Assembly (NCBI GenBank): GCA_947482125.1
Contig: CANKIV010000004.1
Location: forward strand, 1-36,211
Direction: 5' to 3'
Origin: Alphaproteobacteria bacterium
GTDB taxonomy: Bacteria; Pseudomonadota; Alphaproteobacteria; Micropepsales; Micropepsaceae
Length of the DNA: 36,211 nucleotides
This document shows positions 16,668-20,358 of this stretch, piece after piece. How positions within the stretch are numbered: the first letter of the stretch is position 1; every line of letters begins with the position of its first letter. The notes under the pieces are model-generated. The model made no database searches, was not told where the DNA came from, and saw only the letters and a program-made list of their open reading frames with translations. Both the position numbers and the translations under genes were made by a program.

Positions 16668-18734
16668 ATGTCCGGGATTAATCGCAGAAACATGTTGGCC
16701 GCGACGTCGGTGCTGGCCTTGCTGGGCAAGGAAGCGTGGGCGCAAGCCCCGGCCGCCGCTCCGGCCCCCGCGCCCAAATCCAATATCCCCGACACCGACT
16801 GGTCGCAGTTCGGCGGCAATCTCGCCAGCCAGCGCTATTCGCCGCTGGACCAGATCAATGCCGAGAACTTCAACAAGCTGGAACTGGCCTGGAAGTTCAA
16901 CACCGATTCACTTGGCCCGGTGCCGGACGCCTATTTCAATTCCACGCCCCTGATCATCAAGGGCCGCATCTTCACCACCGCCGGCATGCGCCGCGATGTG
17001 GTGTCGCTGGACGGCGCCACCGGCGAACTGCTCTGGTCGTATCGCCATGACGAAGGCGCGCGCCTGGGAACCCGCGGCGGACCGGGCTTCGGCTGTTCCT
17101 ACTGGACCGACGGCACCAACGAACGCATCCTGTTCTGCACCCGCGGCTATTCCATGATCTCGCTGGACGCCAAGACGGGCCTGCCCGATCCGGCCTTCGG
17201 CGTGAACGGCATTCTCGACCTGCGCCTGAACAACGACCAGGAGATCGATCCCAATCGCGGCATCATCGGCATCCATGCCCCGCCGCTGGTGGTGCGCAAT
17301 GTCGTGGTGGTGGGTTCGGCCCCCACGGCGGCGGTGAAGGGCTACCTGCGCGGATTCGACGTGAAGACGGGGCAGCGCAAGTGGATCTTCCACACCATCC
17401 CGCGCAAGGGCGAGTTCGGCTACGATACCTGGATCAAGGAAGGCCAGGCCGAGAAGGCCGGCAATGTCGGCGTCTGGGCGCCGATGTCGGCGGACGAAGA
17501 GCTGGGCCTGGTCTATGCCGGCGTCGAACTGCCGCCCACCGATCTCAACGGCACCGAGCGCCACGGCAATGCGCTTTTCAGTGAAAGCGTGGTGGCGCTG
17601 GACATCGAGACCGGCGTGCGCAAGTGGCACTACCAGCTCACCCATCATGGCTTGTGGGATTACGACATTCCCTGCGCCGCGATCCTGTGCGACCTCAACA
17701 TCCGGGGCCGCGTGGTCAAGGCGCTGGCCCAGCCCAGCAAGCAGGGCTTCCTCTATGTGCTGAACCGCGAAACCGGCAAGCCGGTCTGGCCGATCCCGGA
17801 AACCAGGGTGCCGCAGGGCAATGTGCCGGGCGAATGGTATTCCCCGACCCAGCCGGTGCCGTCGCGTCCGCCGCCGTTTGATCGCAACGGCATGACCGAA
17901 GCCGACCTGATCGACTGGACGCCGGAACTGAAGGCGCGCGCGCTGGCCATCTCCAAGCATTACAAGCTTGGCGGATTGTTCACCCCGCCCGCCTTTGTCG
18001 AACCCCGCGGCGTCTTCGGACAATTCCTGCTGCCCGGCACCCAGGGCGGCGCCAACTGGCCCGGCGGGTCCTACGATCCGGAAACGCGCAAGGTCTTTGT
18101 CTATTCCAAGACCCGCATGGAATCGGTCGGCATCACCCGCAGTCCGCAAGACCCCAATCGCATGACCCAGGCGGGCCTCGTCACCGCGCCCAACACCGCC
18201 GATCCCAATGGCGGCATCTTCGGGTCCGCCGCCAGCCTCAAGGGCGGCACCACGCGCAGCTTCGCCGGCCCCAATGACGCCATCGATGCTCCCATCGTGC
18301 CGCGCCTGCTGTCGATCGAAGGGCTGCCGCTCAACAAGCCGCCGTTTGGCCGCATCACGGCGCTGGACCTGAATGACGGCACCCTGGCCTGGCAGGTCGC
18401 CCATGGCGAGACGCCGGACTTCATCAGGAATCATCCGCGCCTGAAGGGCGTGAAGATTCCGCGCACCGGCCAGTCGGGCATCCTGGGCACGCTTGCCACC
18501 AAGACACTGGTGATCTGCGGCGATGCCGGCGTCTTCACCGACGCGCAGGGCCGCAAGGCGGCGCGTCTGCGCGCCTATGACAAGAAGACGGGCGAGGAAA
18601 AGGGCGCGGTGTATATGGAAAAGGTCCAGACCGGCTCGCCCATCACCTACATGCTGGGCGGCAAGCAATACATCGTGCTGGCGGTCAGCAATGGCTATGG
18701 CGCCGACCTGATCGCCTATCGCCTGCCGGGCTGA
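16668..18734 (+). CDS. PQQ-dependent dehydrogenase (quinoprotein glucose-dehydrogenase-like), twin-Arg signal
   Basis: INRRNMLAATSVLAL signal; DWSQFGGNLASQRYSPLDQINAENFNKLELAWKF; VVSLDGATGELLW, YQLTHHGLWDYDIPCAAIL, TALDLNDGTLAWQVAHGE propeller motifs. Confidence 0.92.
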   Translation: MSGINRRNMLAATSVLALLGKEAWAQAPAAAPAPAPKSNIPDTDWSQFGGNLASQRYSPLDQINAENFNKLELAWKFNTDSLGPVPDAYFNSTPLIIKGRIFTTAGMRRDVVSLDGATGELLWSYRHDEGARLGTRGGPGFGCSYWTDGTNERILFCTRGYSMISLDAKTGLPDPAFGVNGILDLRLNNDQEIDPNRGIIGIHAPPLVVRNVVVVGSAPTAAVKGYLRGFDVKTGQRKWIFHTIPRKGEFGYDTWIKEGQAEKAGNVGVWAPMSADEELGLVYAGVELPPTDLNGTERHGNALFSESVVALDIETGVRKWHYQLTHHGLWDYDIPCAAILCDLNIRGRVVKALAQPSKQGFLYVLNRETGKPVWPIPETRVPQGNVPGEWYSPTQPVPSRPPPFDRNGMTEADLIDWTPELKARALAISKHYKLGGLFTPPAFVEPRGVFGQFLLPGTQGGANWPGGSYDPETRKVFVYSKTRMESVGITRSPQDPNRMTQAGLVTAPNTADPNGGIFGSAASLKGGTTRSFAGPNDAIDAPIVPRLLSIEGLPLNKPPFGRITALDLNDGTLAWQVAHGETPDFIRNHPRLKGVKIPRTGQSGILGTLATKTLVICGDAGVFTDAQGRKAARLRAYDKKTGEEKGAVYMEKVQTGSPITYMLGGKQYIVLAVSNGYGADLIAYRLPG

Positions 18735-19588
18735 TGGACCGGACCGCCGTTGCAAGCGCGGTCTGTTTCGCATCGCTTTTGATGTCTGCTTCCTCCTTGG
18801 AAGCCGCGCCTGCGCCGGTCAAAAAACCGGCGCAGGCGTCTTCATTTAAAACGCCCGCGCGGAGCGACCGCGAACCCGAAGGGCATCGCGGCGCGACCAT
18901 TAAAGAACCCCTTTCCGAATACCAGAAGGAACAGGCGATGAGCCCGGCCCAGCTCATCCGGCGCTGGAAGACGCCGGTGGCAAAGGCGTCGCGTCGCTTC
19001 GGCGTTCCCGTCGCCTGGATCAATGCGGTGATGCGGGTGGAAAGCGGGGGGCGCACCATGCTGGCGGAAAATGCCCGCATGATCTCCGACAAGGGCGCGA
19101 TGGGCATCATGCAGGTGATGCCCGGGACCTATGCCGAAATGGCGGCGGACCACCGCCTGGGCGCCGACGCCTTCAACCCTTCGGACAATATCCATGCCGG
19201 CGCGGCGTACCTGCGCTGGCTGAAAGGCAAATACGCCTATCCCGCTCTTTTCGCCGCCTACAATGCTGGGCCGGGACAGGTGGATGCCGCCTTGACCAAA
19301 GGGGCGCGGCTGCCGGAGGAAACCCGCGCCTATGTCGTGCGCATCAACGCCATACTGGGCGGCAAGGATGACGGCACCTCCATCTTCGCCGCGCCGCTGA
19401 CCCGGCCCGACGGCAGCCGCGTGCTGGTTGACCCGCTGGCGGTGGTTGCGGTCCGCGCCGCGTTGCCAGGCGAGTATGGCCCCGATGTGCAGTCGGTGAT
19501 CCGGCTGGGCGGGCGGCTGACCCAGGGCGTGCGCGAAGACATCAAGACGGTGACCACGGCGATCCGCCTGCGCGGCGGCAAGGTTTAG
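18734..19588 (+). CDS. Lytic transglycosylase (SLT domain)
   Basis: FGVPVAWINAVMRVESGG...GAMGIMQVMPGTYAEMA...NIHAGAAYLRWL...ALFAAYNAGPGQV; start overlaps PQQ gene stop (TGATG). Confidence 0.92.
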   Translation: MDRTAVASAVCFASLLMSASSLEAAPAPVKKPAQASSFKTPARSDREPEGHRGATIKEPLSEYQKEQAMSPAQLIRRWKTPVAKASRRFGVPVAWINAVMRVESGGRTMLAENARMISDKGAMGIMQVMPGTYAEMAADHRLGADAFNPSDNIHAGAAYLRWLKGKYAYPALFAAYNAGPGQVDAALTKGARLPEETRAYVVRINAILGGKDDGTSIFAAPLTRPDGSRVLVDPLAVVAVRAALPGEYGPDVQSVIRLGGRLTQGVREDIKTVTTAIRLRGGKV

Positions 19589-19600
19589 AAAACCGCGGCA

Positions 19601-19627
19601 CACTGGCCCGGCCAGGCCGGGCCAGTG
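19601..19627. terminator. Hairpin between convergent genes
   Basis: CACTGGCCCGG-ccagg-CCGGGCCAGTG, perfect 11-bp stem; no strong T run. Confidence 0.55.
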
Positions 19628-19635
19628 TCGCCATC

Positions 19636-19746
19636 CTATTTCGCGCGGCAGCCGCAGGCCGGGGCGCAGGATTTGCAGGCGTAGGGCTGGCACTTGCAGC
19701 CGGCGCATTTGCAGTCCTGGGTTTTGGCGGTTTCGATCTTCGTCAT
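19636..19746 (-). CDS. Metallothionein-like Cys-rich small protein (36 aa, 8 Cys), not in the ORF track
   Basis: MTKIETAKTQDCKCAGCKCQPYACKSCAPACGCRAK*; SD GAGAGGT upstream of ATG at 19746. Confidence 0.72.
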   Translation of the reverse strand: MTKIETAKTQDCKCAGCKCQPYACKSCAPACGCRAK

Positions 19747-19776
19747 GGTGACCTCTCGGGTTGTTGACCACCAGTG

Positions 19777-19807
19777 TTCTGGGGTGCGTACCATGGTACG
19801 GAGTCAA
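19777..19807 (-). promoter_or_regulatory. MerR-family-type promoter/operator
   Basis: Minus strand TTGACT-C-CGTACCATGGTACG-CACCCCAGAAC: -35 TTGACT followed by a 14-bp perfect dyad containing GTAC-N4-GTAC. Confidence 0.55.
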
Positions 19808-19909
19808 GCGGCTGGCGGCTTTCAGGAGCCGCTCGATGCTGGGGGAAGCCGCCAATGGCAGTTACGGCGGCCCGGAAGCCGAATACCGCCGCCTGTTCGG
19901 CAAGCCCGT

Positions 19910-20056
19910 CTAGCTTTCCAGCCAGTGCAGGCTGAACAGCCGCTCCGCATCGGTCCAGACCGCGCGCGGGCTGAAACCGGCGCGCACCGCCATCTCGCGG
20001 AAGGATTCGATGGTGTATTTGTGGCTGTCCTCGGTATGGATCGCCTCGCCCGGCGG
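19910..20056 (-). pseudogene. C-terminal fragment of an EgtD-like L-histidine N-alpha-methyltransferase
   Basis: PPGEAIHTEDSHKYTIESFREMAVRAGFSPRAVWTDAERLFSLHWLES*: characteristic HTE(D/N)SxKYT...AGF...VWTD..(F)S(L/V)H C-terminus; rest of the gene absent. Confidence 0.7.
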
Positions 20057-20355
20057 ACAATCTGCGTTTCGGCGTCACCCTGCACGATCATCTCGTGGCG
20101 TCCGAAACCGAATACCGCATCGATGAGATCAGTTCGGAATACCATCTCTACAAGCTGGGCGCCTTCATCGAGTACAAGCCGGTACCGGCCTGGACCATGC
20201 GCGTTTACGGCAATGACGTGGTGCCGACCCATTACCAGCGCAACCGGCAGATCTATGGCGGCCTCAGGGGCGTCTCGGCGCTCAGCCAGATCGAGCGCCG
20301 CCGCCTGACCAATGGCGCCCTGATCGGGCTGCGCGTTCAGCACGATTTTCTCTGA
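20056..20355 (+). pseudogene. C-terminal fragment of a TonB-dependent receptor-like protein
   Basis: DNLRFGVTLHDHLVASETEYRIDEISSEYHLYKLGAFIEYKPVPAWTMRVYGNDVVPTHYQRNRQIYGGLRGVSALSQIERRRLTNGALIGLRVQHDFL*; beta-strand pattern ending in aromatic residue; no start, no plug domain. Confidence 0.6.
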
Positions 20356-20358
20356 CGA

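Follow-up and report, generated by a model that had tools for sequence, protein, structure and literature searches.

Does a short cysteine-rich reading frame behind a MerR-type dyad, in a 36,211-nucleotide stretch of DNA (hereafter the window), encode a metallothionein, and if so, which ion and which regulator would control it? The minus-strand frame translates into MTKIETAKTQDCKCAGCKCQPYACKSCAPACGCRAK, with the cysteine spacing CxCxxCxCx4CxxCxxxCxC, exactly as the sequence-only reading had written it (Table 1). It has the clustered CxC and CxxC pairs that define metallothioneins as a class, and peptides of the same style occur in three relatives. No family match was obtained in Pfam, NCBIfam, PADLOC or PHROGs (for Pfam and NCBIfam, 0 families at E values up to 10), and a PDB profile search with the peptide gave no match either. 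The proposal that annotation had overlooked a metallothionein-like gene at this place looks right, with four family libraries passing it by.

Table 1. Features of the peptide locus, in window coordinates.
Feature	Position	Strand	Details and basis
SLT-domain lytic transglycosylase	18734..19588	-> (+)	convergent to peptide; PF01464, E 1e-19
Stem-loop, likely terminator	19600..19628		directly 3' of stop codon; fold
Mini-metallothionein-like ORF	19636..19746	(-)	36 aa, 8 Cys; translation, homologues, shuffles
Shine-Dalgarno GAGAGG	19752..19757	(-)	5 nt before ATG; sequence read directly
Candidate -10 CAGAAC	19776..19781	(-)	20-bp spacing; operator comparison
MerR-type operator dyad CGTACCATGGTACG, GTAC-N4-GTAC	19787..19800		kept upstream of three relatives' peptides
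-35 element TTGACT	19802..19807	(-)	same in G025, G076 mini-metallothionein, Sphingomonas caeni

GC-rich DNA yields small Cys-rich ORFs, and the window itself holds two more, which lack both CxCxxCxC-type spacing and an operator. Cys content is therefore weak evidence when taken alone, and the real evidence is conservation. Among 60 dinucleotide-preserving shuffles of the window, CxCxxCxC occurred within a small ORF in a single one, and a small ORF with at least 8 Cys at a density of 20% or more occurred in none. Moreover, the Cys motif, the peptide start and the distance to the dyad are all conserved in three other genomes. A chance ORF beside a functional or equally fortuitous dyad is accordingly the reading to which we give the least credit of all. 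Judged from the sequence, the frame is a real, unannotated metallothionein-like gene and not a product of chance.

The promoter was found largely as it had been described, with a -35 box, the GTAC-N4-GTAC dyad and a 20-bp spacer leading to a weak CAGAAC; the one correction concerns its distance, since the element placed about 47 nt upstream actually stops 40 nt short of the ATG. The sequence-only reading had passed over the Shine-Dalgarno sequence GAGAGG and the strong stem-loop directly 3' of the stop codon. The exact dyad is the sole match in the window at up to 2 mismatches, where 0.07 would be expected, and the sole match in the whole 2.4-Mb assembly at up to 1 mismatch. A palindrome within an over-long -35/-10 spacer of 19-20 bp is the hallmark of MerR-controlled promoters and is present here, though the -10 is weak: it misses the usual first T and appears degraded next to the TAAACA, TAAGCC and TATAGC of G025, G076 and Sphingomonas caeni, respectively. 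The assignment of the dyad to a MerR-family regulator is borne out by G025 and S. caeni, in which a MerR-family gene is the divergent neighbour.

In these three relatives, similar Cys peptides of 25-40 aa lie behind the same dyad, so that both the Cys pattern and the upstream dyad recur outside the window; across the four cases the peptides carry 6-9 Cys. Across 96 genomes from the same family, one convincing homologue was returned in a search with the peptide, that of G025 (MTNVETPTNEACKCIKCSCNPCNCAKVPEGCAPSCGCESK, 40 aa, 50% identical to the window peptide). It is preceded by TTGACTCCGTACTATGGTACG, and the divergent gene encodes a 131-aa protein with the Pfam domains MerR_1 and MerR-DNA-bind. 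The other, weak matches in the family were not peptides of the mini-metallothionein kind, and neither was a profile match in G065. When the same 96 genomes were searched for the operator only, it was present in 14, of which the window genome, G025 and G076 have the peptide; in the remaining ones the dyad leads to glutaredoxin-MauE genes, merR genes or merT. The peptide is thus rare (3/96 family genomes), and a combined search for dyad and peptide in 386 genomes of the class, a sample with only five genomes of the window's genus, returned the window only. Scores from the peptide profile refer to the profile's own input sequences and hence are not independent. Outside these genomes, the G025 peptide had no tblastn match in plasmids, and none of 6 viral contigs matching operator plus CxC encoded such a peptide.

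The G076 peptide (MTKNQTEKSCKCAPCTCKPCRCGAK, 25 aa, 6 Cys, behind TTGACTCCGTACCATGGTACG) faces the same transglycosylase gene, in convergent orientation, as the window peptide does, and the window and G076 share 78% identity over a 1.3-kb block that runs through the operator. The transglycosylase is probably a syntenic neighbour with no part in the mechanism; its ortholog in G070 is 80% identical, yet that genome lacks the peptide. We also observed a 139-bp piece of the window (19912-20050) that matches G076 at 94% identity, clearly more than the 78% seen in the block beside it. This piece is directly followed (to 20356) by the apparent end of a different gene, which is on the opposite strand and has no Pfam match; a rearrangement or a chimeric join is possible within 19912-20356. 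The third relative, S. caeni (L086), was among the matches listed when named genomes were scanned with TTGACTCCGTACNNNGGTACG. Its genes are ordered merR, operator, peptide and glutaredoxin-MauE, with merR divergent from the other two, and its peptide MTYEAQTETETRCSCNPCTCRNCGC has 25 aa and 6 Cys. Since the alignment of the peptides covers little length and Cys prevails in it, the case for common descent of the peptide in S. caeni is mainly a positional one.

The position of the S. caeni ORF, 57 nt before the glutaredoxin-MauE gene, together with a stem-loop 3' of the ORF in both the window and G076, would also suit a Cys-codon-rich leader peptide, that is, a metal-sensing upstream ORF that attenuates a downstream gene after the model of CutF, which sets a precedent for upstream ORFs that sense copper (PMC9973294). 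A co-directed downstream gene is present in S. caeni, but in the window and in G076 the next gene is convergent and leaves such a leader with no target, which makes this explanation very improbable. The stem-loop after the window ORF folds at -37.2 kcal/mol (z -5.85), a similar one follows the G076 copy (z -3.38), and the former is likely a terminator, possibly one common to the ORF and the convergent transglycosylase gene. We therefore return to a stand-alone peptide gene and to the regulator that would control it.

The sequence-only reading had likened the dyad to the mercury MerR operator. As far as the DNA site goes the likeness holds, with half-sites and spacing the same as in mer operons and at least 30 dyad loci linked to merT, and one may imagine a mercury module in which a true Hg-responsive MerR owns the dyad, with the peptide trapping Hg(II) in an accessory role. 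The regulators point elsewhere. In an alignment to CueR, the position corresponding to Ser77 of CueR and Cys82 of the mercury MerR is Arg in both peptide-linked regulators (2/2) and, among the matches listed, Arg in 40 of 42 glutaredoxin-linked regulators as against Cys in all 30 merT-linked ones. The mercury signature of Cys82 plus two loop Cys is therefore incomplete in the peptide-linked proteins, which do keep the CueR-like C-x7-C loop (CQGSNRGPC in G025, with the same spacing in G076 and S. caeni). Concomitantly, the merT-linked regulators group together in the tree (100/99, with a few other rows), and the peptide-linked ones fall outside that clade, with those linked to glutaredoxin-MauE, in a tree that leaves many of its other forks unresolved and has CueR on a long branch. 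Finally, neither merT nor merA was seen beside the four peptide genes. A mercury module is accordingly unlikely.

Arg at position 77/82, judged by alignment, matches neither known case exactly. In CueR, Cu+ is bound by the two loop Cys, and residue 77 is said to govern selectivity between +1 and +2 ions (PMC9909328); Ser at this position marks monovalent sensors, and the known Cu(I) sensors have Ser, not Arg (PMC11591864), which leaves the metal uncertain. The NCBIfam MerR and CueR models match the regulator below their cut-offs (for CueR, 93.7 bits vs 147.4). Among homologues on plasmids, 14 of 15 have Arg and one has His, and 8 of these 15 loci, which were picked from the top matches and have no control set for the neighbour count, have a gene with a copper-resistance or copper-binding annotation at most 6 kb away. 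If one also admits a DUF411 gene and a heavy-metal P-type ATPase, the count rises to 10/15, and 5/15 have no copper-type gene nearby. We take this neighbourhood as a lead to the identity of the metal and not as a test of it. The usual target of the Arg class is a glutaredoxin-MauE membrane protein. Since Arg-class loci are often found among copper-resistance genes, Hg is a less likely ion than Cu(I) or Ag(I), and from its sequence the regulator looks like a copper or silver sensor and not a mercury sensor.

Apart from the peptide genes, and among the matches listed, GTAC-N4-GTAC loci mostly lead to merT or to the glutaredoxin-MauE protein, in which Pfam recognises MauE plus Glutaredoxin. The same promoter was also observed before heavy-metal P-type ATPase-like genes (L034, L054, L056 and L121) and, at other dyad loci, before merR itself in the same direction.

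A further claim was that the MerR protein is encoded away from the peptide. A cognate MerR-family gene is present in both G025 and G076, and in the latter, a 100% complete genome, there is no merR beside the peptide; an Arg-class regulator lies on another contig, C7, divergent from glutaredoxin-MauE over the dyad CCGTACCATGGTACGG. This arrangement supports a two-locus regulon, and to that extent the claim stands for G076. Downstream of glutaredoxin-MauE on the same contig (L228 3575-4882) we noted a Met/His-rich predicted exported protein, the composition of which suggests a link with copper. For the window genome itself the regulator was not found: no metal-sensing MerR came to light in its 87%-complete assembly, the only MerR located there being one beside an IHF-like gene.

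This gap, combined with the poor -10, means that the window copy may be an orphan, weakly expressed or decaying. On contig C19 of the window assembly (L227 4681-5462) the MauE half occurs without the glutaredoxin half, and the order is a Penicillinase_R/CopY-like (BlaI-like) repressor gene, then a short gene start that runs in frame into the MauE half. Homology to G076 stops at the passage into that gene start, and the junction could stem from a deletion or from a chimeric join. The truncation suggests that the regulator locus was lost or misassembled. One could thus regard the window copy as a relic, the regulator and the glutaredoxin half having been deleted, the -10 having decayed and the peptide being no longer induced. 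Against long neglect, however, the reading frame, all 8 Cys, the Shine-Dalgarno sequence and the dyad are intact, and with 87% completeness and a C19 junction that could be a chimera, the missing parts may reflect the assembly. We consider a relic a serious minority possibility, of about one chance in three in our estimation, though it bears on no copy but that of the window and does not conflict with the explanation that we favour for the family.

That explanation, which we hold at a probability of roughly 70%, posits a bacterial metallothionein of very small size (25-40 aa), the product of a gene that stands alone and is driven by a MerR-type promoter; the peptide would buffer Cu(I)/Ag(I) beside glutaredoxin-MauE. 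The ORF, the operator, the conservation of both, the divergent or unlinked regulator and the dyad common to the glutaredoxin-MauE locus are all evident at the sequence level, and from them we infer expression, the identity of the metal and its binding. In the relatives that have the regulator, a MerR-family dimer with the two-Cys C-x7-C loop and Arg at 77/82 would sit on the GTAC-N4-GTAC dyad in the spacer of 19-20 bp. Binding of a soft ion that is probably monovalent, either Cu(I) or Ag(I), would lead it to untwist the promoter. The peptide then made would sequester the ion as a metal-thiolate cluster, acting as a cytosolic thiolate sponge, and the glutaredoxin-MauE protein, a thiol-redox membrane protein of the same regulon, would act alongside it.

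Tentatively, and with slightly less than even confidence, we propose that these peptides form a previously undescribed family of 25-40 aa Cu/Ag metallothioneins, in one regulon with glutaredoxin-MauE and under a separate, Arg-bearing class of MerR proteins. Searches of the open-licence literature, judged mostly by titles and abstracts, brought to light no account of these peptides or of the Arg-bearing class. If the proposal is true, the peptides would rank among the shortest known metallothioneins. ORFs of 25-40 aa slip past annotation, and an operator-anchored search finds related peptides where library models fail, which makes it a route to further ones. Besides, MerR proteins of the Arg-bearing class are widespread and often encoded beside copper genes, and they offer a test case for residue 77/82 setting the choice of ion.

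Among known systems, SmtA has an N-terminal CxCxxCxC run that resembles the window peptide, and MymT of Mycobacterium tuberculosis is under a type of regulator different from the MerR-type switch. SmtA and BmtA are small Cys-rich peptides as well, and the window peptide differs from them in having no Pfam or NCBIfam match; at 25-40 aa, it and its relatives would also be too short for the zinc-finger-containing fold described for SmtA, going by the title of Blindauer 2001. MymT is likewise bacterial, small and linked to copper detoxification, and function has been tested for only a few bacterial metallothioneins (PMC7387436). In the CueR regulon the C-x7-C loop, the palindrome in a long spacer and the copper-linked neighbours are shared, whereas Arg instead of Ser77 and the sub-cut-off CueR score set our regulators apart. 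The fungal Cu-thioneins of Neurospora crassa and Agaricus bisporus, with 26 aa and 7 Cys (PMC4755600), come close in length and Cys density to the 25-aa, 6-Cys forms of G076 and S. caeni, but they are fungal and common descent is without evidence. Similarly, CadR-zrd of Pseudomonas aeruginosa ties a MerR-family sensor to a metallothionein-like gene, but Zrd has predicted zinc ribbons, the response is to Zn/Cd and CadR is another type of MerR protein (PMC12301328). CadR-zrd is a precedent for a metallothionein-like gene under MerR control, and the fungal metallothioneins are a precedent for equally short peptides.
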